Shown: piece after piece, positions 24,700-39,149 of the stretch
How positions within the stretch are numbered: the stretch's first letter is position 1
Layout of the letters: every line of letters begins with the position of its first letter
Source of the DNA: Oscillospiraceae bacterium
Lineage (GTDB): Bacteria > Bacillota > Clostridia > Oscillospirales > Oscillospiraceae
DNA: 51,100 nucleotides
Direction of reading: 5' to 3'
NCBI GenBank assembly: GCA_017515345.1
Contig: JAFWFZ010000006.1
Span: 1-51,100, forward strand
Notes under the pieces: generated by a model
Seen by the model: the letters and a program-made list of their open reading frames with translations, nothing else
What the model was told of the DNA's origin: nothing
Databases searched by the model: none
Made by a program: the position numbers and the translations under genes

Positions 24700-25407
24700 C
24701 TAGATCTTCTTTACGAGCTCGCGCCGCAGCTTCAGAATGATCCGCTTTTCCAGACGGCTGATGTAGGACTGGGAGATGCCCAGCCCCTCTGCCACTTCCT
24801 TCTGGGTGCGCTCCCGCCGCCCGCCCAGGCCGAACCGCATCTGGATGATCGTCCGGTCCCGGTCGCTGAGCTTCGACACAGCCTCCCGGAGCAGCTTCAC
24901 CTCCGCGTCGTCCTCCAGAGGGCGCATCACCACGTCGGCGTCGGTGCCCAGCACGTCGGAGAGGAGAAGTTCATTCCCGTCCCAGTCGGTGTTCAGGGGC
25001 TCATCCAGGGAGATCTCGATCTTCCGGTTCGCCGCCTTCCGCAGGAACATGAGGATCTCGTTTTCGATGCAGCGGGAGGCGTAGGTGGCCAGCTTGATCT
25101 TCTTTCCCCGGTCATAGGTGCTCACCGCCTTGATGAGCCCGATGGTGCCGATGGAGATCAGATCCTCTATGTTGATGCCTGTATTCTCAAAACGCTTGGC
25201 GATGTAGACGACGAGACGCAGGTTTCGCTCGATCAATTCCCTCCTGGCCCCCTCGTCGCCGGCGGCCAGTCGGTCCAGGCAGTCCTGCTCAGCGTCCTTT
25301 TCCAGCGGTGGGGGCAGGGTGTCGCTCCCGCCGATGTACATGATCCCCTGGGGGCGCAGGGCCCCCGAGCGGATGAGCATCCGCCGGATAGTAAGTATCA
25401 GGTTCAT
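24700..25407 (-). CDS. sigE: RNA polymerase sporulation sigma factor SigE
   Basis: A 235-residue sigma-70 factor closely resembling pro-sigma-E. The N-terminal pro-sequence ([20 protein letters not shown]) precedes [13 protein letters not shown], which corresponds to the known processing region. Region 2 reads [41 protein letters not shown]. Region 4 ends in [25 protein letters not shown]. It directs early mother-cell transcription after cleavage by SpoIIGA, encoded just upstream with an ATGA overlap. The usual downstream neighbour sigG is not present; azlC follows. Confidence 0.96.
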
Positions 25408-26228
25408 GGTCCCTCCTCCGCGCCGATGAGCGCGCGGTATGCGCCGCCGTCAGATACGCTGTTGGGCGACACGGCGACGAGCAGTGATCGTTTCGGCCTT
25501 CCGTCCAGACGAGCCTCGTCCGGGCGGAAGGCCAGCAGCAGGCCGTCCTCCACTCCCACGGCGCTGTAAGGAACCAGACGGAAGCGGCTGTCCTCCAGCG
25601 CCTCGAAGGCGGCCACGGCGCCGCGCTCCCGCACAAGGACGGCCGGGTTGGGGGATTCCCCCTCGAACAGGGGCATCAGGTCGTCCGCCCCGGCCACGGC
25701 CACGCCGGAGCCTGTCAGCGGGTCGGTGAGGCTGTTCCCCGTGTCCGCCATGGCTGACAGACGCACACACCGGCCGCCCCGGATAAGGGTGAGCTGGGCG
25801 ATCGCGCCGCCCCGCCGTCCGGCCCGACGGAAGACGATGGAAAAGATGCCGCAGCAGCAGAGAAGCGCGGGAATGAGCACCTGCGGCTCCGCCAGCCGCC
25901 CGCCGGTGAAGAGGGCAAGAGCCCAGGCCACGCCGCCGAATGCCGCCGCCACAGCAAAAAGCGTCAGCGTCGGCCGCAGGAGCGAGCGAGGTCCCCCGAA
26001 GGCGGCCAGAGCGATCAGGATGCCGAAGGCGACCCGGAGCAGAGGCGACAGGAGAAAACCCATCCCCGGCAGATACCCCGCGGCGGCGTAAAGTCCGCCC
26101 AGCGCCGCCGAAAGGATGAGCCGCGCCCGCCGCACCCGGACGCCGCAGATACCGCCCGTGGCCAGCAGCAGGAAACAGTCGATGAGCGCGTTGACGAAAA
26201 ATACGGAATCTATGTAGACGACCTGCAT
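25404..26228 (-). CDS. spoIIGA: Sigma-E processing peptidase SpoIIGA
   Basis: A 274-residue membrane aspartic protease. The N-terminal half has about five membrane helices ([24 protein letters not shown] onward). The C-terminal half holds [16 protein letters not shown], with the catalytic Asp in the DTGN motif. It cleaves the pro-sequence of sigma-E at the forespore septum during sporulation. The true start is ATG 26228, matching the conserved N terminus; a 410-residue reading of the frame extends backwards over the next gene and is rejected. GGGAGG lies upstream. It is translationally coupled to sigE. Confidence 0.93.
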
Positions 26229-26311
26229 CACGTTGCCTCCCACCCGCCGGGAGCGCCAGCCCACCGGCCGCGTCCATCTTACGCCGGGAGCGGCGTGAAA
26301 AAGGTCAAAAC

Positions 26312-26584
26312 CTACCAGCCGCGCAGGATCTTTTCCCGTCGATAGGCGCCCTCCACGTCGATGAGGATGATATCGTCCCCGATCCGCCGGATGCACTCCC
26401 AGGGCAGCACATAGTCGTCCTCCCGGCCCAGAAGCCCGAAAAACCGCCGGGGCCCCGGCGCGATCAGGGCGACCACCCGGCCCCCCGGCGACTCCAGCAC
26501 CACGTCGGCCACAAGGCCCAGGCGCAGCCCGTCCCGGATGTTCACGATCTCCTTGCACCGGAGCTCCCCGATGCTCACCTGCAT
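26312..26584 (-). CDS. YlmC/YmxH family sporulation-associated protein
   Basis: A 90-residue PRC-barrel-like protein. MQVSIGELRCKEIVNIRDGLRLGLVADVVLES, GPRRFFGLLGREDDYVLPWECIRRIGDDIILID is the family core. In Firmicutes, relatives are encoded near sporulation or cell-division genes; the molecular role is not established. GGGGGTGG lies before the ATG. The gene is 84 bases upstream of spoIIGA and probably belongs to its transcript. Confidence 0.85.
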   Translation of the reverse strand: MQVSIGELRCKEIVNIRDGLRLGLVADVVLESPGGRVVALIAPGPRRFFGLLGREDDYVLPWECIRRIGDDIILIDVEGAYRREKILRGW

Positions 26585-26633
26585 ATCGCCACCCCCTTTG
26601 TTCCAGCCTATGCGACGCCTCGCCGAAATAGGA

Positions 26634-26667
26634 CAAAAAAAGACCGGAGGGCGCCGCCTCCGGTCTT
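26634..26667 (-). terminator. Terminator of the tetrapyrrole operon
   Basis: AAGACCGGAGG (26640-26650) pairs with CCTCCGGTCTT (26657-26667). On the minus strand the stem is followed by a run of six or more T residues, just after the stop of the precorrin-2 dehydrogenase gene. Confidence 0.85.
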
Positions 26668-26670
26668 GTC

Positions 26671-27123
26671 TTATTCCTTTTCCAGGAGTTCCCGAACCGC
26701 TTCGGTCAATCGTTTGGCCTCCTCGTGGTCCTTTCCGCTGGCGGTGACGCCGATAACCGCGTTCTCCTTCACGGCTACGCCGGGGAAGTAGAAGTCGCTT
26801 TTTCCCTTGTCGCTGGCCACGTTCACCGGTATGCCCAGCCGCTTGCAGTCCTCATATACCCGGTCGTTCACCGCCGGGTCATTCGTAGCGGCGAATACCA
26901 GGTCCGCGCCGTCGAGGTCCGACGGGGCGTAGGGCTTTTTCAGGAGTTCTACGCCCGGCAGCGCCTCCAGCTCCGGCAGCGCCCCGACTGCGACCACGGC
27001 GACCCGGGGGGCGAAGCGCAGCAGCGTCCTGATCCGCCGGTACGCAATGCGTCCCGCACCGACGACCAGGAGCTTTTTTCCGCTCAGGTCCACGAACAGG
27101 GGGAAATAGGGGTAGTCCGCCAC
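26671..27123 (-). CDS. Precorrin-2 dehydrogenase (siroheme synthase N-terminal type)
   Basis: A protein of about 150 residues that should oxidise precorrin-2 to sirohydrochlorin with NAD. It opens PYFPLFVDLSGKKLLVVGAGRIAYRRIRTLLRF, an NAD-binding Rossmann motif with GAGRIA. It continues with DLVFAATNDPAVN and GIPVNVASDKGKSDFYFPGVA, as in CysG-N and Met8. I start at GTG 27123, 9 bases after AAGGAAG; a reading from 27162 overlaps the previous gene. It is the last gene of the operon, so the operon can feed both siroheme and cobalamin. No separate chelatase domain is evident. Confidence 0.85.
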   Translation of the reverse strand: MADYPYFPLFVDLSGKKLLVVGAGRIAYRRIRTLLRFAPRVAVVAVGALPELEALPGVELLKKPYAPSDLDGADLVFAATNDPAVNDRVYEDCKRLGIPVNVASDKGKSDFYFPGVAVKENAVIGVTASGKDHEEAKRLTEAVRELLEKE

Positions 27124-27127
27124 GGGC

Positions 27128-28198
27128 TCACTTCCTTTTCTTCTTGATGAAATGGTTGGCAACGCCGCCCAGCACGATGATCCCCGCCGCCAGATACAGC
27201 ACCTTCATCGCCGCGTTTTGGGGGATCTGGGACTTGGAGCCGATGGACTCGGCGTAGAAGGTGAGCACGTATTCGATCTCCACCGGGTCGCCCATGGCAG
27301 TGGTGTCCGCAATGACGGGGATCCCCTCATCCATAACGGTGATGGGGATCTCAAAGGTGGAGTTGCCCCCGTCGGTGGTCTGATTGTGATAGACCTCGTC
27401 CTCCAGGATCATATAGTCGTAATAGCTGCTGCTCCACAGGAGACGGGCGTATGCCCGCCCGTCCCGCACGATGAGCAGGGTGGGAGAGGAGATGCTTGCC
27501 CGGCCGCTGCCGCCGGTCATGTTCACCTCAATGGAGTACTCCCCGTCGGAGCGGGGCACCGTCACCGCCTCCGGCGGCTCATGCGGCTCCATATGCGCCG
27601 GGGTGACGGGCGCCGCTTCGTAAGCGCGGATGGCGGCCTCGATCACGTCCAGATCGGGCAGGTCGATGGCCACAGCCCCCTCCGGCAGGGAGGAGGCGTA
27701 GAACACCAGCGTCCGGTCATACCACCGCTTGCGCCGCTTGCTGTAGGCCGCGCAGGGGACGCCCTTGTCCAGCGCCTCCACCGGGATGGTGAACACGCCG
27801 TGGCCGCTGCTGTCCGTGTAGCCGATGTAGTTCTCTTTTTTGTCGTTTTCCGCCTGCTCGCCGGAGCCGGGGTAGACCCATTGATAGCTGAGACTCGATA
27901 CAGTGATGCGGGCGGACATGACATGGTCCTCCACGATGAGCTGCGCCTCCAGGATCTTGAAGAACGGAGAGGAGGAATCCACCTTCACGTCGTATACCCC
28001 GTCGGCCACGTCCCGCCCGTAGACGGGGACCATGCCGTAGCGCCCCACGTCCATGGAGCGGATCTCCTTCTGCGCCTGGGCCGCTCGGGCGGAGAGGTCA
28101 TCCTCCTCCGCGAAAGCGGGGGTCGCGTCGCAGAGGATCACCGCAAGGCAGAGCGCATAGCAGAAAACACAAGCGAGTATTCGTTTCAGTCTTCCCAT
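27128..28198 (-). CDS. Membrane-anchored surface protein with two NEAT-like domains
   Basis: A 356-residue protein. The signal peptide ends near PAFA (residue 30). Two related beta-rich domains cover about 61-172 and 214-318. Each has a DG-(V/E)-Y-(D/S)-(V/I)-(K/E)-V opening, an (A/T)-x-LIV-x-(D/R) strand, a middle SSLSYQWVYP or SSSYYDYMIL block, then F-(T/E)-IPV-type strands and LVFY/LTFY ends. A C-terminal helix (331-349) with a KKKRK tail anchors it outside the cell. This pattern resembles NEAT domains, which bind heme or related tetrapyrroles. Its place in a B12-controlled tetrapyrrole operon supports tetrapyrrole or corrinoid binding. The family call is by pattern only. ATG 28198 is preferred over a longer frame that covers the permease gene. 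Confidence 0.65.
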   Translation of the reverse strand: MGRLKRILACVFCYALCLAVILCDATPAFAEEDDLSARAAQAQKEIRSMDVGRYGMVPVYGRDVADGVYDVKVDSSSPFFKILEAQLIVEDHVMSARITVSSLSYQWVYPGSGEQAENDKKENYIGYTDSSGHGVFTIPVEALDKGVPCAAYSKRRKRWYDRTLVFYASSLPEGAVAIDLPDLDVIEAAIRAYEAAPVTPAHMEPHEPPEAVTVPRSDGEYSIEVNMTGGSGRASISSPTLLIVRDGRAYARLLWSSSYYDYMILEDEVYHNQTTDGGNSTFEIPITVMDEGIPVIADTTAMGDPVEIEYVLTFYAESIGSKSQIPQNAAMKVLYLAAGIIVLGGVANHFIKKKRK

Positions 28199-28206
28199 GG
28201 CGCACC

Positions 28207-28938
28207 TCACAGATTCTTCTTCCGGTAGATGAACCAGACTGCGAGCCCGCCGAAAACTACGAGATACGCCGCCAGCACGGCAAAGCCGAAAAGCCCCGGC
28301 TCCTCCGCGTTGGCAATGGCGCGGATCATGGAGCTGGCCTGGGAGAGGGGCAGCAGGCTGATGACCTGCCGGAAGCCGGAGGGCATCTGGTCCGTGGAGA
28401 AGAAGGTGTTGCACAGAAACGACATGGGCATGATGATATAGGAGGTGAACCGGGGGGCGTCGGTATAGCTTTTGGCCAGAAAGGACAGCACCAGCGCGAT
28501 GGTGGCGAACACGGTGCCGTTCAGGAACATGATGAGCACGGAGATGAGATTGAACGTCAGATCCGTGCGGATGGGCAGCGTCAGCAGCAGGATGATGCCT
28601 CCGGCGTACATGCCCCGCAGCGCGCCGCCGATGACCTGGCCCAGGATGAACTGCCACAGGGGCGTGGGCGAGACCATCACCTGGTCCAGCGCCTTTTCGT
28701 ACAGGCGCTGCACGCTCATATTCTGGGCGATGGCGCTGAAGCTGCCGGTCATGGTGGCCATGGCCACTACGCCGGGGATGAGGAAATGGAGATAGGGCTC
28801 CCCGTGGGAGGTGGTCTGGATCCCCATGCCGAAGATGATGAGGTACATGAGGGGGGAGATCATGGCCGCGACGGTGATCTTGTAGAAGTCGCGCCGGAAC
28901 TCCACCCATTTTTCCCATAATACTGTAATGATCCCCAT
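28207..28938 (-). CDS. ABC-2 type transporter permease
   Basis: A 243-residue membrane protein with six predicted helices in the ABC-2 arrangement. AMISPLMYLIIFGMGI is the first helix, then PGVVAMATMTGSFSAIAQNMSVQRLYEKALDQVMVSP, and MPMSFLCNTFFSTDQMPSGFRQVISLLPLSQASSMIRAI is the typical late segment. Such permeases usually export drugs, lipids or polysaccharides. GAGGAG lies just before the ATG. It is placed between its ATPase and the NEAT-like protein, 10 bases from either. The cargo is unknown; tetrapyrrole handling is suggested by context only. Confidence 0.85.
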   Translation of the reverse strand: MGIITVLWEKWVEFRRDFYKITVAAMISPLMYLIIFGMGIQTTSHGEPYLHFLIPGVVAMATMTGSFSAIAQNMSVQRLYEKALDQVMVSPTPLWQFILGQVIGGALRGMYAGGIILLLTLPIRTDLTFNLISVLIMFLNGTVFATIALVLSFLAKSYTDAPRFTSYIIMPMSFLCNTFFSTDQMPSGFRQVISLLPLSQASSMIRAIANAEEPGLFGFAVLAAYLVVFGGLAVWFIYRKKNL

Positions 28939-28948
28939 ACTGCTCCTC

Positions 28949-29791
28949 TCAGCCGTTCGTCAGCTTCCGCCCGGCGCATTCCACGAATACGTCCTCCAGG
29001 GTGGTGGCCCGGAGGCTGGCGTCCTGCCCCGCCGTGCGCAGGTAGGCGATGGCCGCTTCCCGGTCGGGGAAATAACGGCTTTTCAGCCCATCCTCCCCGG
29101 TCTCATCCACGGCGAAGCCGCCCAGCTCCGCGATCAGGCCCGCCGGGGAGTCCAGTTTCTGGAGCTTTCCCCGGTTGATCAGGGCCACCCGGTCGCAGAG
29201 GGCCTGGGCCTCCTCCATATAGTGGGTGGTGAGGATGATGGTCATGCTTCTGCCGTTGAGCCGCCGCAGAAGGTTCCACATCTGCCGGCGCGACAGAGCA
29301 TCCATCCCGGCGGTGGGCTCGTCCAGCAGAAGGATCTCCGGCTCGATGAGCAGGGCGCGGCAGATCATCAGCTTCCGCTTCATGCCGCCGGAGAGGTGAC
29401 GCACCGTGCGCCGCCGGTACTCCAAAAGTCCCGCGAAATCCAGAAGCTCCTCTGTTTTTTGACGGATCACCTTCATTGGCAGCCGGTAGAGCCGCCCCTG
29501 ATACTCCATCACCTCGTCCATGCTCATATCCTGCCGCATGGAGTATTCCTGGGTGATGACGCTGAGCTTCCGCTTCTGGGCGGAGGACTTGCGGGTGAGC
29601 CGCTGTCCGTCGATGAGGATCTCGCCGGAGGTGGGCAGCAGCACCGTGGAGAGCATGCTGATGGTGGTGGTCTTGCCCGCGCCGTTGGGTCCCAGCAGGC
29701 CGAAAAACTCCCCCGTTTCCACCGTGAGGCTCAGCCCGTCCACCGCGGTAAAATCCTCGAACCGCTTCGTCAGCGATCGAAGCTCGATCAT
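28949..29791 (-). CDS. ABC-2 type transporter ATP-binding protein
   Basis: A 280-residue ATPase of the DrrA/NodI-like group. Walker A is GPNGAGKTT (34-42), the signature is LSGGMKRKLMICRAL, and Walker B is ILLLDEPTAGMD, followed by the H-loop TTHYMEEA. All catalytic residues are present. The C-terminal region (ATTLEDVFVECAGRKL) is typical of ABC-2 exporters. The start overlaps the cobI stop by ATGA, linking it firmly to the tetrapyrrole genes. It should power the permease encoded next. Confidence 0.9.
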   Translation of the reverse strand: MIELRSLTKRFEDFTAVDGLSLTVETGEFFGLLGPNGAGKTTTISMLSTVLLPTSGEILIDGQRLTRKSSAQKRKLSVITQEYSMRQDMSMDEVMEYQGRLYRLPMKVIRQKTEELLDFAGLLEYRRRTVRHLSGGMKRKLMICRALLIEPEILLLDEPTAGMDALSRRQMWNLLRRLNGRSMTIILTTHYMEEAQALCDRVALINRGKLQKLDSPAGLIAELGGFAVDETGEDGLKSRYFPDREAAIAYLRTAGQDASLRATTLEDVFVECAGRKLTNG

Positions 29792-30477
29792 GATCTGTGC
29801 TCTTTTGCGATGATGAGGGAGAAGTAGCCCGCGTCGTCGGGGATCTCATCCAGGCTGCGGCAGATCTGCTCCGTCTCCATGCCGCAGTCGATGACGGCGC
29901 AGGCCTCCCGGCCGCTTGAGCGCAGGAGCTCCTTGACCTCCCTCATGTGGCTGGCGGATTTCATCAGCACGTAGTTGCCGTCCCGCTCCAGCCGGTCCTC
30001 CGTCTTGTGGACGGCGGGCACGACGTGCAGAGGCTCGTCCCACTCCGCCAGGGGGAGGTTCAGCCGCGCCGCCGCCGCGCAGAAGGAGGTGATGCCGCTC
30101 ACCAGCTCCACGGGGTAGCCGTCCGCCTCCAGATAGTGCTGGAGATAGCTGAACGTACAGTAAACGGTGGGATCGCCCAAGGTTATGTAAACCACATTCT
30201 TCCCCTGATCCAGATACTTTTTCAGCAGCTCGGCGCCCTTTTTGTGCTCCTCGTCAATGAGGGCGCGGTCCTTCACCATGGGCATATAGACCGGCACCAG
30301 TTCCTTTTCCGCCAGCTCCGGCACCGCCTGTACCGCGATCTTGTAGGCGACGGATTCCCGGGCGTCCTTCCCAGCCACGGCGATCACATCGTTCTCTTTG
30401 ATGAGCCGGATGGCCTTGAGCGTCATGAGCTCGGGGTCGCCTGGGCCCACGCCCACGCCGTATGCGATTCCTTTCAT
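29788..30477 (-). CDS. cobI: Precorrin-2 / cobalt-factor-II C20-methyltransferase
   Basis: A 229-residue tetrapyrrole methylase. GVGVGPGDPELMTLKAIRLIKENDVIAVAG is the glycine-rich N-terminal loop specific to CobI/CbiL. TLGDPTVYCTFSYL and LVSGITSFCAAAARLNLPLAEWDEPLHVVPA complete the family signature. It transfers the C20 methyl group from SAM to precorrin-2 or its cobalt form, the first step committed to cobalamin. It overlaps the cobA-hemD and ABC ATPase genes by 4 bases each. Whether the aerobic (CobI) or anaerobic (CbiL) substrate is used cannot be read from the sequence; an anaerobe would use the cobalt form. No other corrin-ring genes are in the window. Confidence 0.92.
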   Translation of the reverse strand: MKGIAYGVGVGPGDPELMTLKAIRLIKENDVIAVAGKDARESVAYKIAVQAVPELAEKELVPVYMPMVKDRALIDEEHKKGAELLKKYLDQGKNVVYITLGDPTVYCTFSYLQHYLEADGYPVELVSGITSFCAAAARLNLPLAEWDEPLHVVPAVHKTEDRLERDGNYVLMKSASHMREVKELLRSSGREACAVIDCGMETEQICRSLDEIPDDAGYFSLIIAKEHRS

Positions 30478-32000
30478 TTCTTTTCCTCCTTCTTCAGCTC
30501 CGCCGCGGCGCGCTCCGCGCAGTCGGCCAGAGATTCCAGCGTCGCTTTTTCGCTAACCCAGGTGCGCATACCCAGCGCCTCCGCCGCCGACCGGGTCTGG
30601 CGGCCGATGCACACGGCGTTCACCTTTGAAAAGTCCATGTCTCCCATGCTCTCCGCGAAGCCCCGCACCGTGGACGCGCTGGTAAACAGACACAGGTCCA
30701 CGTCGCCGGACTCCACCGCGGCCCGCTCGTCGATGACGCGGGAGCGTATATAGACCGTATCATAAGTGGGGAGATCGGTGATCTCCAGCCCGTCGCCGCC
30801 CCTGAGTCCTTCGATGAGGGCCCGGTTCCCGATGGCGGCCCGGGGTATGAGGAGCCGCGCGCCCTTTTCGCAGACGGCGGCCAGCTCCCGGCCAAGGGTC
30901 TCCCCGTCGTACACCGAGGGGACGAAATCGGGTCTCAGCCCGTATTTTCTCAGGGCCTTTGACGTTCCCTGTCCGATGGAGGCGATGCGGACCCGCCCCA
31001 GGGCGCGCACGTCCAGCGCCTCCAGCAGTTTGTCGAAGAAGATGCGCACGCCGCTGGGGCTCGTGAACACCAGCCAGTCGTACCGGCCCTGCGCCAGCGC
31101 CGCAATGGCCGCCTCCACAGGGGCCTGATCGTCCACCGGCACGGTGGCGATGGCGGGCAGCTCCAGGACCTCCGCCCCGCGCTGCCGCAGCAGATCCGCC
31201 AGACCGGAGACGAGCTCCCGCGGCCTTGTCACCAGCGCCTTCACACCGCCCAGGGGCCGCTTTTCATACCAGGAGAAGGTGTCCGCCAGGGAGCAGACCG
31301 GCCCCACCACGATGATGGCGGGCGTCTCCACCCCCTGCCTTTCGCACTCCGCCTCCAGAGTGTCCAGGGTGGCCACGATGCGCTTCTGGGCGGCGGTGGT
31401 GCCCTTCTGCAGTACAGCCGCCGGGGTGCCCGGGTCCATGCCGGCCTCCAGCAGCCCGGCGCGGATATGGGGCAGCGCCGCGATGCCCATGAGGAAGATG
31501 AGGGTGCCCTTTGTTTTCACCAGGGCCCCGAAGTCGATGTCGTACTCGCTCTCGCCCCGTTTGTGTCCCGTGATCACGTGGACGCTGGAGGTATAGTCCC
31601 GGTGGGTCACAGGGATGCCGCTGTAGGCGGGCACCGCAAAGGCGCTGGTCACGCCGGGCACCACCTCGAAGGGGATCCCGTGCTCCGCCAGCAGCTCCAG
31701 CTCCTCGCCGCCCCGGCCGAAGAGGAAGGGGTCGCCCCCCTTGAGCCGCACCACCCGGTATCCCTTCCGGGCTTCCTCCAGCAGCAGCCGGTTGGTGTCA
31801 TGCTGCTTCATATAGTGGTTGCCGGAGCGCTTCCCGGCAAAGACGAGCCGGGCGGAATCGGGGATCATGTTCAGAACGCCCTGTCCCACCAGCGCGTCGT
31901 AGACCACCACCTCCGCCTCGGAAAGGACCTGTTTTCCGCGAAGCGTAAGCAGTCCGGCGTCACCGGGGCCAGCGCCCACCAGCCAAACTTTTCCGGTCAT
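30474..32000 (-). CDS. cobA-hemD: Fused uroporphyrinogen-III methyltransferase / uroporphyrinogen-III synthase
   Basis: A 508-residue bifunctional protein. The N-terminal domain (about 1-240) is SUMT: VWLVGAGPGDAGLLTLRGKQVL, VVRLKGGDPFLFGRGGEE and VVPGVTSAFAVPAYSGIPVTHRDY. It methylates uroporphyrinogen III at C2 and C7 to give precorrin-2. The C-terminal domain (about 255-500) is HemD: VKALVTRPRELVSGLADLLRQRGAEV, DWLVFTSPSGVRIFF and LCLFTSASTVRGF. It closes and inverts the D ring. This fusion order is common in Firmicutes and channels uroporphyrinogen III toward siroheme and cobalamin. The gene has 4-base overlaps on both sides. Confidence 0.95.
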   Translation of the reverse strand: MTGKVWLVGAGPGDAGLLTLRGKQVLSEAEVVVYDALVGQGVLNMIPDSARLVFAGKRSGNHYMKQHDTNRLLLEEARKGYRVVRLKGGDPFLFGRGGEELELLAEHGIPFEVVPGVTSAFAVPAYSGIPVTHRDYTSSVHVITGHKRGESEYDIDFGALVKTKGTLIFLMGIAALPHIRAGLLEAGMDPGTPAAVLQKGTTAAQKRIVATLDTLEAECERQGVETPAIIVVGPVCSLADTFSWYEKRPLGGVKALVTRPRELVSGLADLLRQRGAEVLELPAIATVPVDDQAPVEAAIAALAQGRYDWLVFTSPSGVRIFFDKLLEALDVRALGRVRIASIGQGTSKALRKYGLRPDFVPSVYDGETLGRELAAVCEKGARLLIPRAAIGNRALIEGLRGGDGLEITDLPTYDTVYIRSRVIDERAAVESGDVDLCLFTSASTVRGFAESMGDMDFSKVNAVCIGRQTRSAAEALGMRTWVSEKATLESLADCAERAAAELKKEEKK

Positions 32001-32890
32001 ATGCCGCCCTCCCTGAAGTGATCCCGCAGCCTGCGGGCAAGACTCACGCCCAGCTCCCGGGCGTCGGAAGCCGTGCCCTCCGCCTCGCCGGTCACGTGGC
32101 GGCCGGCAGCCTCGTCATAGTACAGGGCGCGAAGGCGGATCGTCCCGTCCTCCACCCTGGCGTAGGCGCAGACGGGCGACGTGCAGCCGCCGTTCAGCTC
32201 AGAGGTGAAGGCCCGCTCGCAGATCGCGGCGGTCTCCGCGTCCTTATCCAGGAAGCCGGAAAGATAGCTGTGATCCTCCCCGGCGCGGCCCTGGATGGCC
32301 AGAATGCCCTGCCCCGCCGCGGGGATCATCTCCTCCGGCTCGAAGAACCGGCTGATGCGGCTCTCCAGTCCCAGCCTTTTGAGACCGGCGGCCGCCAGCA
32401 CCAGGGCGCCGAACTGCCCCTCGTCCAGCTTCCGGAGCCGGGTCTGCAGGTTGCCCCGGACGGGCTCGATCCGGTATCCGGGATACAGCGCCCGGAGCTG
32501 CAGGCTCCTGCGCAGGCTGGCGGAGCCAATGGGCTTTGCCGGGTCGGGGACGGTCGCCCCCTCAGGCAGCACCAGCACGTCCCGGGGATCTTCCCGCTTT
32601 GAAAAGCCCAGCAGGGGCAGATCCGCCGCCACCTCCATGGGCACATCCTTCAGGCTGTGCACCGTGATGTCCGCGCGGCCGTCCCGCAGGGCGGCGTCCA
32701 GCTCCTTGACGAAGAGCCCCTTCCCGCCCACCTGGTCCAGGGTGCGGTCCAGGATCTTATCCCCGGTGGTCTTCATGGTGACGAGCTCGACCTGCGCATC
32801 CGGCACTTCGGCGCGGAGATAGTCCACCACCATCATGCTCTGCCTGACAGCCAGGACGCTCTCCCGGCTGCCGACGATGATCCGCCTCAT
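31997..32890 (-). CDS. hemC: Hydroxymethylbilane synthase
   Basis: A 297-residue porphobilinogen deaminase. [12 protein letters not shown] and [32 protein letters not shown] form the substrate-binding start. [20 protein letters not shown] and [15 protein letters not shown] are conserved. The dipyrromethane cofactor cysteine is C236 in NGGCTSPV, where many homologues have GGCQVP. It polymerises four porphobilinogens into hydroxymethylbilane for the HemD domain encoded next. It overlaps hemL and cobA-hemD by ATGA. Confidence 0.95.
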
Positions 32891-34158
32891 GGCCGGAACT
32901 CCCGCGCCGCCGCCAGCGTCCGCGCCAGATCCTCCTCCGAGTGGGCGGAGGAGAGAAACATGGCCTCAAACTGGGAGGGGGCCAGGTACACGCCCCGCTC
33001 AAGCATGTGCCGGAACCAGGCGGTGAAGCGCGATGTACTGCTTTTTTTGGCGGAGGCGTAGTCTGTCACGGGATCGCCGGTGAAAAACACGCAGCCCAGG
33101 GAGCCCACGCGGTTGAGGGTATGAGGCACGTCCCGCAGGGCGCCGTCCAGCTCGGAGAAGAAACGCTCCGCCGTCCTGTTCAGGGCGCCGTAGAAATCGG
33201 GGGTGTTTTTCAGAACCGTGAGCTGGGCGAGCCCGGCGGCCATGGCCACCGGGTTGCCGGACAGGGTGCCCGCCTGATACACGGGGCCCAGGGGGGCCAC
33301 CGTCTCCATCACGTCCCGGCGGCCGCCGTAGGCGCCCACGGGCATGCCGCCGCCGATGATCTTGCCGAAGGTGCACAGGTCCGCCCGCACACCGTAATAC
33401 TCCTGGGCGCCGCCCAGGGCCAGCCGGAAGCCGGTGATCACCTCGTCAAAAATGAGGAGGGCGCCGTTTTTGTCGCACAGGTCCCGCAGCCCCTCCAGAA
33501 AGCCGTCGGCAGGGGGTACCACGCCCATGTTGGCCCCCACGGGCTCCACGATCACGGCGGCGATCTCGCCGGGATTCGCATCGAAAAGGGCGGCAACGCC
33601 CGCAAGGTCGTTGTACTCCGCGGAGAGGGTGTCCTTCGTGCACCCGGCGGGCACGCCGGCGCTGCCGGGGATGCCCTGGGTCATGAGACCGGAGCCGGCC
33701 GCCACCAGCATGGCGTCGCTGTGGCCGTGGTAGCAGCCGGAGAATTTGATGAGCTTGTCGCGTCCGGTGAAGCCCCTGGCCGCCCGGACGGCGCTCATCA
33801 CCGCCTCGGTGCCGGAGTTCACCATGCGGATCATGTCGATGTTTGGGACGATAGCGCAGATGAGCTCCGCCATCTGCACCTCCCGCTCGGTGGCCGCGCC
33901 GAAGCTGAGGCCGCCGCGGACCGCCCGATCCACCGCATCCCGCACCGCGGGGTGGCCGTGGCCCAGGATCATGGGGCCCCAGGAGCATACGAAGTCGATA
34001 TATTCGCGCCCGTCCGCGTCCGTGATCCGGTCGCCCTCGGCGCTGGCGATGAAGGGGGGCGTCATACCCACGGAGCCGAAGGCCCGCACGGGGCTGTTGA
34101 CGCCGCCGGGGATGCGCCGCCTGGCCCGGTCAAAAAGCTCTTGAGAGGTTGAAGTCAT
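32887..34158 (-). CDS. hemL: Glutamate-1-semialdehyde 2,1-aminomutase
   Basis: A 423-residue PLP enzyme that converts glutamate-1-semialdehyde to 5-aminolevulinate. [15 protein letters not shown] is the family N terminus, [22 protein letters not shown] binds the cofactor phosphate, and [10 protein letters not shown] precedes the PLP lysine in [12 protein letters not shown] (K266). The length is normal. It overlaps hemB upstream and hemC downstream by 4 bases, so translation is coupled. Its product feeds HemB. Confidence 0.96.
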
Positions 34159-35138
34159 CCGATTTTTCCCTCCCGCATGTATTTTGCCAGCTCCTCGGCG
34201 AAATAGGTGATGTACAGGTCCGCTCCGGCGCGATAGGCGGAGGCGGCCATTTCGCAGACGATCCGCTCCTCATCGATCCAGCCGTTTGCCGCGGCGGCCT
34301 TCACCATGGCATATTCGCCGCTGACGCTGTAGGTAGCCATGGGCAGATCGGTGGCGTCCTTGATCTCCCGCACCATGTCGAGGTAGCTCATGGCGGGCTT
34401 CACCATGAGGATGTCCGCGCCCTCCTCCACGTCCAGGAGCGCCTCCTTCATGCCCTCTCTGCGGTTGTGGAAGTCCATCTGATAGCTCTTCCGATCCCCG
34501 AAGGCGGGCGCGGAGTCGGCGGCCTCCCGGAAGGGGCCGTAGAAGGCGGAGGCGTATTTCACCGCGTAGGACATGATGGGAATGTTCGTGAAGCCGTTCG
34601 CGTCCAGCTTCTCCCGGATGGCGCGGACGCGGCCGTCCATCATATCGGAGGGGGCCACCATATCCGCGCCGGCCTGGGCGTGGGAAAGGGCGGCCCGGCT
34701 CAGCAGCTCCAGGGTGGCGTCGTTGTCCACCTCCGTGCCGCAGAGCTGGCCGCAGTGGCCGTGGGAGGTGTACTCGCACATGCACACGTCGGTGATGAGG
34801 CAGAGGTGGGGATACTGCTCCTTCATATGGCGCAGGGCCCGCTGCACCGCGCCGTTTGCGTTCCAGGCGCCGCTGCCGATCTCATCCTTCTTTTCCGGGA
34901 TGCCGAAGAGGAGGATATTCCGCACGCCCGCCTCGGAGAGGGAGTCCAGCTTCTCGTCCATCCTGTCGATGGAATAGCGGTACTGCCCGGGGAGGGACGG
35001 GATCTCCGATTTGATGTCCGTCCCGTCCGTGAAAAACATGGGGTAGATGAGAGTGGAGGGGTCGACCCGCGTCTCCCGCACCATCTTGCGCAGCTTCTCA
35101 CTGCTGCGAAGCCTTCTCGGCCTGACTGTAAGATCCAT
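34155..35138 (-). CDS. hemB: Porphobilinogen synthase (5-aminolevulinate dehydratase)
   Basis: A 327-residue enzyme condensing two 5-aminolevulinates into porphobilinogen. The zinc-type cysteines are C119, C121 and C129 in [14 protein letters not shown]. The Schiff-base lysines are K194 in SYAVKYAS and K247 in LMVKPAMSY. It is therefore the Zn-dependent class. The start is ATG 35138, eight bases after AAGGAG; a GTG at 35159 precedes that site and is rejected. It follows hemA by 31 bases and overlaps hemL by ATGA. Confidence 0.96.
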
Positions 35139-35169
35139 TTCCGATCTCTCCTTTGTCACTTTTTATAGG

Positions 35170-36405
35170 TTACGCCTGGTCGCGGAAAACATGCTCCATG
35201 GCCTGCACACATTCCGAAAATACACTGTCCGGCAGACGGGCCCGCAGTCCGAACAGCAGCCGGTTCATCATCCGCTGGGCAGCGCCGTCCACCTCCTTCA
35301 CCAGGTTTTCCTTCTGGTCGCCGGTGAGGGGGATGCCCCGATAGACCGGGGTGAGCCGGGCGTCCACGTCCTTTGCCGCCGTTTCCTTCAGGGACTGGAT
35401 GCGGGGAATCATGTCCTGCCCGTTATACCAGGAGTAGAACTCCCGCTTCTCCTCCTCCAGGATCGACTCCGCCAGGGCGATATTGCGCCGGAGCCTGTCG
35501 CTGGAAACGTCGATATGGAAGGCGTCGATATCATACAGGGTGAAGCCGGGGAGCGCGCCCGCCTCCACCTCGATGTCCCGGGGTACGGCCAGGTCCACCA
35601 GGCAGATGGGCCCGTGGGGCGCCATGGCAGTGAGCTCCGGCACGGTGAGAGTGTAGTTGGGGCTGCTGGTGGCGCTGACCACCAGGTCGCAGGAGGGGAT
35701 GAACCCGTAGCGGTCGGTGTAGTTGATGCGCTTGCAGCCGAAGGGGATGTCCACGATGCCGCTGTGGTACTGTCGAACGGTGACGGTCACGTCCGCGCCT
35801 TTCTGGATGAGGGCGTTGGCGGAGAGCCTGCCCATCATGCCGTTGCCGATGACAAGACATTTCCGCCCTTTCACGTCGAATCCCTGCGCCTCCAGCGCGC
35901 GGAGGGCGGCGTGGATCACGGAGCTGTCCGCGGTGGAGAGGTCCGTCTCCGTCCTGACCCGCTTGCCCGCGGTGACGGCCAGCCGGAACAGCACCTCCAG
36001 CACATGGTCCGCGGCGCAGCAGACTCGGGCCGTCTTCAGGGCGTCGCCCACCTGGGTGAGGATCTGGTCCTCGCCCACGATGCGGGACTCCAGCCCGGCG
36101 GTGAGCCGGAACAGATGCTCCACCGCCTCGTCGTCCCGCCGCTCCACAAAAAACGGCCGGTACGAGTCCGCGTCCACCCCCAAAAAGCCGCACAGCAGCT
36201 CCAGAGGCTTCAGCCCCCGCTCGTGGGGCACGCTGAGCCACCACTCCATGCGGTTGCAGGTGGAGAGGATCACGCTGCCGCTGACGGCGGAGAGCTCCCG
36301 CGCGCGGGCGTATGCCTCTTCCATCATCTTTTTTGTAAAGGAGAAGACGCCGCGCACGTCCAGATTCGCCCGGTTGTGATCCACGCCGATCATCATGACT
36401 GACAT
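35170..36405 (-). CDS. hemA: Glutamyl-tRNA reductase
   Basis: A 411-residue enzyme that reduces glutamyl-tRNA to glutamate-1-semialdehyde with NADPH, the first step of C5 tetrapyrrole synthesis. The catalytic Cys50 is in ILSTCNRME. The substrate domain continues with LFRLTAGLESRIVGEDQILTQV. The NADPH domain has KCLVIGNGMMGRLSANAL (GNGMMG instead of the commoner GAGEM). A C-terminal dimerisation helix region is present. ATG 36405 follows GGAGG at 9 bases; a longer frame from 36483 runs through the riboswitch terminator. It is the first gene of the riboswitch-controlled operon. Confidence 0.95.
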   Translation of the reverse strand: MSVMMIGVDHNRANLDVRGVFSFTKKMMEEAYARARELSAVSGSVILSTCNRMEWWLSVPHERGLKPLELLCGFLGVDADSYRPFFVERRDDEAVEHLFRLTAGLESRIVGEDQILTQVGDALKTARVCCAADHVLEVLFRLAVTAGKRVRTETDLSTADSSVIHAALRALEAQGFDVKGRKCLVIGNGMMGRLSANALIQKGADVTVTVRQYHSGIVDIPFGCKRINYTDRYGFIPSCDLVVSATSSPNYTLTVPELTAMAPHGPICLVDLAVPRDIEVEAGALPGFTLYDIDAFHIDVSSDRLRRNIALAESILEEEKREFYSWYNGQDMIPRIQSLKETAAKDVDARLTPVYRGIPLTGDQKENLVKEVDGAAQRMMNRLLFGLRARLPDSVFSECVQAMEHVFRDQA

Positions 36406-36433
36406 AGCACTGCCTCCACTGTCGTATTTGCGC

Positions 36434-36463
36434 AAAAAAATAACGATGACCAAATGGTCATCG
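36434..36463 (-). terminator. Intrinsic terminator of the hemA leader
   Basis: CGATGACCA and TGGTCATCG (36444-36452 and 36455-36463) form a perfect stem. On the minus strand TTATTTTTTT follows, about 30 bases before hemA. It is the likely expression platform of the upstream cobalamin riboswitch. Confidence 0.85.
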
Positions 36464-36529
36464 CTACAGCCGGCTGTTCCCATAGCGCGATGGAAAGGCG
36501 GACTGCCGGTCCGTCCGATCCGTCATCCG

Positions 36530-36712
36530 CAGCAGGTCTTCTGACTCGCGCCCCTCGGTCTCCCGGCTGGCCGATCGAGCCTTCTCGGGTCACCCCAATG
36601 GCAGACTTGCGTCTCCGATCGACCATAGGCGCTCACAGCGGCGGTACCGTCCGTGGATTGCACACGGTTCCCTATTCTCCCTCGCCGGTCATGACCGGCT
36701 AAGGCACTGCGG
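36530..36712 (-). promoter_or_regulatory. Cobalamin riboswitch upstream of hemA
   Basis: Read on the minus strand the element has all conserved parts in order. They are the P1 strand CCGCAG, a GCCGGTCATGACCGGC hairpin, AATAGGGAACC, GTGTGCAATCCACGG, CCGCCGCTGTGAG, the GCCATTGGGGTGACCCGAG and AAGGC block, and the B12 box AGTCAGAAGACCTGC running into CTGCGG, which closes P1. Family knowledge says adenosylcobalamin binding turns expression off. Here it would shut the tetrapyrrole operon through the terminator at 36434-36463. Confidence 0.92.
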
Positions 36713-36751
36713 CTTATATACGCCGCCCAGGGGCGGCGGTTTCTGCCAGAT

Positions 36752-36780
36752 ATTCTAACACCGCGGCGGGGCCTTGTCTA
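36752..36780 (-). promoter_or_regulatory. Promoter of the tetrapyrrole operon
   Basis: On the minus strand TAGACA (36780-36775) and TAGAAT (36757-36752) are 17 bases apart. The start would fall about 30 bases before riboswitch P1, with a GC-rich hairpin (CGCCGCCC/GGGCGGCG, 36721-36738) between. Confidence 0.7.
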
Positions 36781-38061: not shown

Positions 38062-39042
38062 TCAGTGGGTCTTGTACCAGTTGCGGACGTGATCCTCGTA
38101 ATACTGCTTGATGAGCTCGCCCTGGGGATTGGGCTTGCCGCCGAAGCCGCCGGCGTGGACGGAGAAGGTGGCGCGGCCGCCGGGGAGGAAGGTGTTGCAG
38201 TACTCGTCCATGTGGGCGATCAGCTCGTCGTCGGTGTAATGGGCCGCGGCCAAGTTGTCCCAGCCGCCCTCAAGCGTCAGGCGGTCGCCGTACTTTTTCT
38301 TGATCCCGGCGCAGTCATTGGAGGTCTGGAAGGGGTTCCAGCCCACAACGCCGATCTCCAGCCAATCCTCCACGAACTGCTCGGACCGGCCGCAGTCGTG
38401 GCGGACGATGCGGCAGCCGTTCTCACGGACGATGTCGCAGTGGAGCTTGTGGAAGGGCTTGAAGATCTCATGGTAGATATCCAGGGAGAAGAAGGGCGCG
38501 CGGTAGGCGGCGTCGTCGTCCATGAGGATGTAGATATCCGGCTTCAGATACTGCATCTGCTTTTTCAGCACCATGGTGTAGAACTTGGAGATCTCGGTCA
38601 GCAGGGCGATGACCTCCTCCGGCTCCTCATAGCAGGCCAGAAGAGCGCCCTCGAACCCCATGAGGCTCACCAGGGATAGGAAGTAGTCGCCGCCGTCCAC
38701 GCAGAGGCACATCTTGCTCCGGTCCACGGTCTCCTCGCGCTTTTTGTAATAGCCCTCCCAGTCGCGGCCGGTGGTGTCACGGATCTTGAGGATATCACGC
38801 CACTTGGTGATATCGTCGATCAGGATCTCGCCGGGCTTGGGCATGGCGCCGTAGTTGATCTCCGCGGAGCCCACGTAGGTGACGCCCAGGCTGGTGACGA
38901 AAGGCTTACCGTCGGGGAGGCTGTTGGGAGTCAGCATCTCGTCGGTAACCGGCATCATGTAGGGGTCGAAGAACGAGGGGACATACTCAGGAATCTCCCC
39001 GTCCAGGGTGCGGATATAGTTTTCTTTCGGTGACAGTGTCAT
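38062..39042 (-). CDS. Uroporphyrinogen decarboxylase (URO-D) family methyltransferase
   Basis: A 326-residue TIM-barrel protein of the URO-D superfamily. It lacks the N-terminal RQAGRY motif of true HemE. It instead resembles corrinoid-dependent methyltransferases (MtaA/MtbA-like) that move methyl groups between a corrinoid protein and a thiol. A possible metal site is IVRHDCGRSEQF (His-x-Cys-Gly). The last cysteine seen in MtaA relatives is not obvious: FSVHAGGFGGKP occurs at the expected place. ATG 39042 has GGAGG at 7 bases; ATG 39045 is the alternative. No corrinoid protein or methyltransferase partner is adjacent. The promoter region carries two direct repeats. Confidence 0.82.
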   Translation of the reverse strand: MTLSPKENYIRTLDGEIPEYVPSFFDPYMMPVTDEMLTPNSLPDGKPFVTSLGVTYVGSAEINYGAMPKPGEILIDDITKWRDILKIRDTTGRDWEGYYKKREETVDRSKMCLCVDGGDYFLSLVSLMGFEGALLACYEEPEEVIALLTEISKFYTMVLKKQMQYLKPDIYILMDDDAAYRAPFFSLDIYHEIFKPFHKLHCDIVRENGCRIVRHDCGRSEQFVEDWLEIGVVGWNPFQTSNDCAGIKKKYGDRLTLEGGWDNLAAAHYTDDELIAHMDEYCNTFLPGGRATFSVHAGGFGGKPNPQGELIKQYYEDHVRNWYKTH

Positions 39043-39149
39043 CATCAATCCTCCATTCGTTTTCTGTCGCGCCGTCCACAGAGCAGGCCGCTTTCGGCAG
39101 GCCTGTACGGAAATGAACACAACTTCACATTTTATAAAAATATATTAAC

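Follow-up and report, generated by a model that had tools for sequence, protein, structure and literature searches.

A possible outside-in route for cobalt in vitamin B12 synthesis, suggested by a riboswitch operon with an ABC-2 transporter and a NEAT-fold protein

Why should an operon for the early steps of vitamin B12 synthesis contain an export-type transporter and a surface protein with NEAT-like domains? The question is raised by a 51,100-nucleotide stretch of an Oscillospiraceae genome (assembly GCA_017515345.1, contig JAFWFZ010000006.1), the whole of which we call the window. Its minus strand carries, from 36405 to 26671, ten genes in the order hemA, hemB, hemL, hemC, cobA-hemD, cbiL, ABC-2 ATPase, ABC-2 permease, NEAT-like protein and sirC, with a cobalamin riboswitch at the 5' end and a strong terminator at the 3' end; a hairpin scan found no strong internal terminator across the ten genes. 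An initial annotation had described this riboswitch operon from its letters, and family searches, the riboswitch match and the terminator bear the description out.

The answer that we put forward, with about even confidence, is that cobalt is loaded from the outside in. That is, sirohydrochlorin made by the window operon would be pumped out by the ABC-2 pair; the membrane-anchored NEAT-fold protein and other NEAT proteins would hold the ring at the cell surface; the lipoprotein CbiK of a second riboswitch operon in the same genome would insert cobalt outside the membrane; and a FecBCD-type importer would return the cobalt-loaded ring to CbiL and the later corrin enzymes. A biosynthetic intermediate would then be the cell's cobalt carrier, and import of free cobalt would not be needed. 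Of the single explanations that give every gene a role, this is the simplest. The initial annotation supposed that the transporter and surface protein may export, store or recover a tetrapyrrole intermediate, which points in the right direction but is vague.

The riboswitch aptamer (RF00174, 36514..36721, on the minus strand, as are all features of the operon) scores 79.1 bits (E 6.3e-18), over the Rfam gathering score. A promoter-like site lies upstream of it at 36780-36752, and between aptamer and hemA a hairpin followed by a T run (36440..36467) is likely the expression platform, a terminator. The ring-making genes all exceed the cut-offs of their families: hemA (glutamyl-tRNA reductase, 35170..36405, TIGR01035), hemB (porphobilinogen synthase, 34155..35159, PF00490 and NF006762), hemL (glutamate-1-semialdehyde aminomutase, 32887..34158, TIGR00713), hemC (hydroxymethylbilane synthase, 31997..32890, TIGR00212), the cobA-hemD fusion (uroporphyrinogen-III methyltransferase and synthase, 30474..32000, TIGR01469 and PF02602), cbiL, also called cobI ((cobalt-)factor II C20-methyltransferase, 29788..30477, TIGR01467) and sirC (precorrin-2 dehydrogenase, yielding sirohydrochlorin, 26671..27123, TIGR01470 at 85.9 bits with a cut-off of 62.3). 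The operon ends at an intrinsic terminator with an 11-pair stem and a T run (26640..26667). Judged by their names, these enzymes lead from glutamyl-tRNA to sirohydrochlorin, the product of sirC, and resume at cbiL, which acts once cobalt is in the ring (pathway order as in the relevant passage of PMC7242693). The chelatase expected between the sirC and cbiL steps is missing from the window operon.

A candidate for this chelatase lies elsewhere in the same genome (G000; 1.76 Mb, 82% complete), in a second operon on contig C26 (locus L112) headed by a cobalamin riboswitch at 2394-2596 (RF00174, 89.9 bits). Its first genes encode a lipoprotein with two CbiK domains, a NEAT lipoprotein, a FecB-like lipoprotein, FecC and FecE; later come cbiB, cbiD, an aminotransferase gene, cbiP, cbiA, cbiC, cbiF, cbiG and cbiH. 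The presence of so many later corrin genes behind a second B12 riboswitch fits the earlier claim that all ten genes of the window operon serve corrinoid supply. The two-domain lipoprotein (L112 2768-4645) has a signal-peptide-like N-terminus with the lipobox LAAC. Both of its domains exceed the PF06180 cut-off (265.8 and 264.4 bits) and keep histidines aligned with positions 145 and 207 of Salmonella CbiK (1qgo), and PDB entry 2xvx, which we take to be CbiKP, is matched at E 1.4e-32. From these features, surface CbiK is predicted to insert cobalt into sirohydrochlorin. Searches of G000 for CbiK and CbiX returned nothing beyond this lipoprotein, CobN-type chelatases not having been searched for, and CbiM gave 0 matches in this 82% complete assembly. 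Since the only CbiK or CbiX found is predicted to lie outside the membrane, the ring would have a reason to be exported and recovered.

Secreted CbiK proteins often have two CbiK domains per lipoprotein (L112, and also L135, L137, L166, L172 and L165). The FecE-type ATPase of the second operon (L112 7973-9106) has 378 residues, and its Pfam ABC match stops at residue 174, the C-terminal part being unmatched. We also considered a metallophore ending at factor III, with no later corrin genes; this is ruled out by CbiD, which is found in G000 and in 48 of 50 relatives.

The window's DrrA-like ABC-2 ATPase (28949..29791) and its permease (28207..28938) both carry domains of the DrrAB and NodIJ kind over the Pfam cut-off (PF00005, 114.8 bits, and PF01061, 77.3 bits). 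They fall short of the curated cut-offs: the ATPase reaches 256 bits for drrA (TIGR01188, cut-off 312) and 172 for nodI (424), and the permease 59.5 for drrB (223) and 60 for nodJ (207). ABC-2 families are as a rule exporters, and by analogy with the family the window pair likely transports outward; its substrate would be sirohydrochlorin.

The 356-residue protein encoded next to the permease (27128..28198) has a signal-peptide-like N-terminus and a C-terminal membrane helix with a basic tail. Its predicted structure model holds two domains, at about 28006-27680 and 27556-27236, which have the NEAT fold, whereas the sequence of this NEAT-like protein has no Pfam match: 0 families exceed the gathering score, PF05031 included. 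Related NEAT lipoproteins match PF05031 at E 1e-4, below the cut-off, and a sequence profile of the window protein matched no NEAT entry in the PDB. In the fold match lists, many of the NEAT entries are heme complexes. The heme-iron-binding tyrosine pair of NEAT domains is a YxxxY motif in the last beta hairpin. Among 60 sequences neither domain conserves this classic pair in its last hairpin; only one Y-x3-Y pair, 105/109, has its tyrosines in half of them or more, and it lies outside the last hairpin. At 90% conservation the protein keeps no histidine and one cysteine. We found 2,211 homologues, and among those listed 119 of 120 have no Pfam domain. The ligand may be sirohydrochlorin.

The ATPase-permease-NEAT trio is no accident. 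Linkage was counted over the best 80 of 142 confirmed loci, in 58 of which the sequence reaches 4 kb or farther upstream of the NEAT gene. In these 58, the ABC-2 permease and the ATPase are each near the NEAT gene without exception (58/58 for both) and cbiL in 52; where present among the relatives, the permease is 70-91% identical to the window copy. A tetrapyrrole, corrin or chelatase gene lies near the NEAT gene in 55 of the 58 well-flanked loci and, within 10.5 kb, in 72 of the 80 overall, which upholds the claim that the export-type transporter and the tetrapyrrole-binding-like protein are part of the pathway. The initial annotation had stated that homologues mostly away from tetrapyrrole genes would count against it, and our neighbourhood survey did not find them so placed. 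CbiK stands immediately upstream of the NEAT gene in 32 of the 58 loci, the window being without one. In L069 no ABC-2 pair is visible, and not every one of the 51 genomes with a NEAT gene (G000 and the genomes of 50 of the 80 loci) is shown to carry the pair. A riboswitch scan of eight loci found one each in L112, L122, L147 and L075 and two each in L049 and L137, where one lies ahead of ring or cobA genes and the other ahead of secreted CbiK.

Some of these loci have further features. Window-type NEAT proteins occur in Eggerthellaceae/Coriobacteriaceae assemblies (L058, L062, L065, L066, L071, L079), with the ABC-2 genes present in the four that have enough upstream sequence; this reflects either interphylum transfer or misbinning. 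A DUF819 membrane protein (PF05684) follows hemB at L076 14999-16204, and likewise in L056, L068, L077 and L078.

How general is a chelatase placed outside the membrane? We call a CbiK secreted if its start has a ribosome-site-like stretch and its N-terminus is positive and followed by a hydrophobic stretch, a rule of our own and not SignalP. CbiK is present in all 50 relatives' genomes. In the 51 genomes (96 of 103 CbiK rows, with 7 fragment rows excluded and the G436 fusion set by hand as not secreted), a secreted CbiK occurs in 43: 36 have a cytosolic copy as well, 6 have the secreted form only, and 1 has it with a cut-off copy. Six secreted-only genomes of 51 are about what incomplete assemblies could give, and the absence of a cytosolic CbiK from G000 could be a chance loss. 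For this reason four near-complete genomes from an even sample, 398 genomes spread over the phylum, count for more. G189, G352, G287 and G269, which belong to three families and are 95-100% complete, possess HemC and corrin genes together with a single CbiK, which is secreted; their CbiX matches fall within the secreted CbiK gene, and so there is no second chelatase of the CbiK/CbiX kind. If the secreted protein is the cobalt chelatase of these four, the ring must cross the membrane twice. Across the even sample (one of whose genomes, G315, shares coordinates with G419 and is apparently the same genome), NEAT relatives occur in 17 of the 398 genomes; CbiK, counted by eye, adjoins the NEAT gene in 15 of these 17, with 13 of the 15 predicted secreted and 2 cut by contig ends.

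Two genomes in which HemC was not found, G400 and G407, have a longer SirC-like gene after the NEAT gene (L137 8570-11263, L155 8652-11405). Right after the NEAT gene they also have, by tblastn and inspection of the sequence, another set of genes, encoding a lipoprotein, a FecC-like and a FecE-like protein, which is possibly an importer for ready-made ring. Apparent single-frame fusions join a HemA-like part to CbiK in L186 (G433) and SirC to CbiK in L160 (G436).

More distant ABC-2 pairs add to the evidence. In the even sample, 51 permease rows at E <=3.4e-37 comprise the window's own, G315 (84% identical) and 49 at 31-40% identity; these and the full-length CbiK rows (65 genomes) were taken by eye from the search tables. 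A full CbiK lies within 15 kb of the permease in 14 of the 51 rows, G315 included. We examined 20 distant ABC-2 regions. Ten have CbiK near the pair, and L301, on a short contig, has FecC-FecE directly before it; the other nine have no CbiK, cbi or hem match, with FecC or FecE farther off in L305, L306 and L308. The order in L300 is secreted CbiK, FecB, FecC, FecE, CbiL, ATPase, permease, and in L311 and L312 it is secreted CbiK, CbiL, FecB, FecC, FecE, ATPase, permease; L310 has the same set as these two in a different order. L302 combines the pair with secreted CbiK, FecBCD, cbiA, cbiC and cbiD, no CbiL being seen there, and in L318 the pair directly precedes hemA, sirC, hemC and cobA-hemD, a secreted CbiK and FecC/FecE lying some 8-12 kb away. 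The permeases of these six loci (L300, L302, L310, L311, L312, L318) are 32-37% identical to the window's. No NEAT match was seen in the distant regions examined. In the permease tree, the 13 window-type rows form one clade (100/100).

Two distant genomes of the same genus both have CbiL with ABC-2: in G151 (L310) the CbiK is secreted and accompanied by FecBCD, and in G119 (L304) it is cytosolic and accompanied by CbiM and CbiN. Secreted CbiK is near the ABC-2 pair in L319 (also L313); in L319 inspection of the sequence suggests ExbB/ExbD-like genes between them, as in outer-membrane bacteria.

The neighbours of secreted and cytosolic CbiK genes can be compared by count. The tally covers 59 CbiK genes from hand-picked regions; it omits L234 and L235 (cut-off starts) and, for two double proteins, the second domain, the start of L231 is doubtful, and L300 and L304, which supplied queries, match themselves. 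Its p-values are uncorrected and a guide only, the genomes being related. Of the secreted CbiK genes, 17 of 31 have FecC within 8 kb, against 2 of 28 cytosolic ones (Fisher 8e-5); for CbiM at the same distance the counts are 0/31 and 4/28 (p 0.045). Without NEAT-adjacent rows, FecC and ABC-2 each give 7/19 secreted versus 2/27 cytosolic (0.022 each), and CbiM gives 0/19 versus 4/27 (0.13).

A number of observations weigh against the outside-in route. Some concern the genes around the transporter: a full CbiK is absent from the 15 kb around 37 of the 51 permease rows; the full tally for ABC-2 within 8 kb is 7/31 secreted versus 3/28 cytosolic (p 0.31); G119 has its ABC-2 genes beside CbiL though its CbiK is cytosolic, with CbiM and CbiN; and the permeases found in a cobalamin context are not one clade, in a tree with long branches and open forks that shows no single origin. 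In the riboswitch scan, L002 and L010, both with hemA, had no riboswitch over the gathering score. Others concern the chelatase. G000 is incomplete, and a cytosolic chelatase may be missing from the assembly. In 36 of the 51 genomes the secreted CbiK is accompanied by a cytosolic copy, and 8 lack a complete secreted CbiK (7 cytosolic only, 1 with a cut-off further copy); because of these cytosolic copies and of the CbiK inside the operon in 32/58 loci, export is not forced there. CbiM exceeds its cut-off in 18 of the 51 genomes, strongly in 16. In vitro, moreover, sirohydrochlorin can take up cobalt with no enzyme (reported in PMC7689651). As for the ring, HemC is found in 40 of the 51 genomes; the other 11 seem unable to make it, yet they keep the NEAT gene and mostly, where the sequence allows, the ABC-2 genes. 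Finally, the window-type permease has no match at E 0.001 in three of G189, G352, G287 and G269 and a weak one (8e-5) in the fourth, and none of the four has an ABC-2 permease match beside its hem genes. Being without the window's ABC-2 pair, they would need some other exporter.

Part of this evidence would suit a division of the system in two. The ABC-2 pump, with the NEAT protein as its partner, might be a safety valve for ring intermediates that are in excess or reactive, or a means of sharing corrinoid precursors with neighbours, while secreted CbiK and FecBCD form a separate uptake system. Cobalt could then be inserted inside, given the CbiK just upstream of the NEAT gene in 32/58 loci and the cytosolic CbiK in most genomes, and the ABC-2/NEAT and secreted CbiK/FecBCD modules are indeed often on different contigs. 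Nevertheless, in G000 and in the genomes of L049 and L137 both modules are headed by B12 riboswitches, a safety valve would hardly be shut off together with the pathway by the same switch, and distant ABC-2 pairs occur in one run with secreted CbiK, FecBCD and CbiL. We therefore regard such a division as unlikely.

It is also possible to read the surface proteins as salvage: NEAT, surface CbiK and FecBCD would capture heme, siroheme or metal-sirohydrochlorins from outside, CbiK would remove or swap the metal, and ABC-2 would serve uptake or disposal. We think this improbable on account of the B12-riboswitch control, the adjacency to corrin genes, the chelatase catalytic residues kept in surface CbiK, and the lack of a conserved heme-iron tyrosine pair in the last hairpins of the two NEAT domains. 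But both surface CbiK domains find their best PDB match in the heme-binding FetB (9b86, E 1.5e-44 and 4.5e-46), presumably the same protein as P. gingivalis IhtB, and this also counts against cobalt loading; the NEAT entries of the fold lists are in many cases heme complexes; HemC was not found in 11/51 genomes and in 6/17 NEAT genomes of the even sample; and IhtB is thought to take iron from heme (a passage in PMC10913741). That the ABC-2/NEAT pair moves cobalt or finished corrinoid, and not a ring intermediate, strikes us as very unlikely. Another cobalt route may well be needed where CbiM is not found, as in G000, or has no strong match, as in 35/51 genomes, but a NEAT protein with no histidine and one cysteine conserved at 90%, an ABC-2 family of exporters, and a gene position beside cbiL and sirC all argue for other cargo. 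The outside-in route remains the reading that we prefer, with cobalt-sirohydrochlorin as the importer's probable cargo.

Two neighbours of the window operon may be mentioned. A URO-D family protein (38065-39120, minus strand; PF01208, 31.8 bits), perhaps a corrinoid methyltransferase, is encoded near it, and a sporulation-type sigma factor with a SpoIIGA-like gene (24700-26636, minus strand) lies directly downstream; from the latter we take the host to be a spore former.

Anaerobic B12 synthesis is generally depicted as taking place in the cytosol, with cobalt entering the cell in ionic form. If the outside-in route is true, cobalt reaches vitamin B12 by a new path, in which cobalt uptake and ring synthesis are one process. 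It would account for secreted CbiK enzymes, for cobalt chelatases that lack a known importer of the metal, and for the FecBCD importers, otherwise taken for vitamin salvage, of operons for de novo B12 synthesis. Sirohydrochlorin would become one more candidate for exchange among gut and rumen microbes, and the NEAT-fold family of 2,211 found proteins would have a first testable role. More tentatively, and at somewhat less than even confidence, we suggest that B12 synthesis leaves the cell in many anaerobes, and that the vitamin's precursor is a cobaltophore which could be shared with ring-less neighbours bearing only the outer half of the system. The term 'cobaltophore' had no match in the literature searched, and those searches, mostly of titles and abstract openings, gave no paper describing the whole arrangement of ring genes, ABC-2, NEAT and surface CbiK. 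Nor is ring export mentioned in the passages seen of PMC13227078, PMC11348799, PMC7755780, PMC4285132 and PMC11301274.

Parts of the arrangement have known counterparts. One set is in Desulfovibrio and its relatives: the cobaltochelatase CbiKP of D. vulgaris is given as periplasmic in PMC4063343, a passage in PMC11124144 places a cobalamin riboswitch close to cbiKP of Oleidesulfovibrio alaskensis, and in Desulfovibrio one B12 element is placed over cbiK-cbiL and btuCDF (PMC545781, in the part cited). As with surface CbiK here, a cobalt chelatase is thus outside the cytoplasmic membrane, with a riboswitch near and cbiL and an importer linked. The same part of PMC545781 describes cbiK-bearing delta-proteobacteria as without known cobalt transporters and proposes CbtX for that role; the Desulfovibrio passages mention no ABC-2 exporter or NEAT protein, whereas here the ring-making genes and an ABC-2 pump share an operon. 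CbiK is also listed next to BtuC, BtuD and BtuF in the Sulfurospirillum cobamide operon, in a passage of PMC7755780. The Iht system of P. gingivalis (IhtB, IhtC-E) resembles ours in its CbiK-like surface lipoprotein and ABC importer, IhtB being given in PMC10913741 as a CbiK homologue and surface lipoprotein with a binding-protein-dependent ABC importer, and FetB is the closest solved structure. However, Iht is described there as a heme/iron system with a TonB receptor, and here a B12 riboswitch lies 5' and corrin genes 3'.

The NEAT hemophores Isd/IsdX of Gram-positive bacteria share with the window protein tandem NEAT folds and a signal-like N-terminus, the window protein having a C-terminal membrane helix; in contrast to them, it has no Pfam match and no conserved tyrosine pair, and it is paired with an ABC-2 pump encoded in a B12 operon. 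CbiMNQO with cytosolic CbiK likewise supplies cobalt for the early insertion pathway, but CbiM is not found in G000 and lies near 0/31 secreted CbiK genes. In metallophore cycles, such as those of siderophores and zinc-binding coproporphyrin, a ligand goes out, metal is loaded outside, and the complex comes in. The logic predicted here is the same, except that the carrier would be an intermediate of the metal-needing cofactor itself, and would be loaded by an enzyme.

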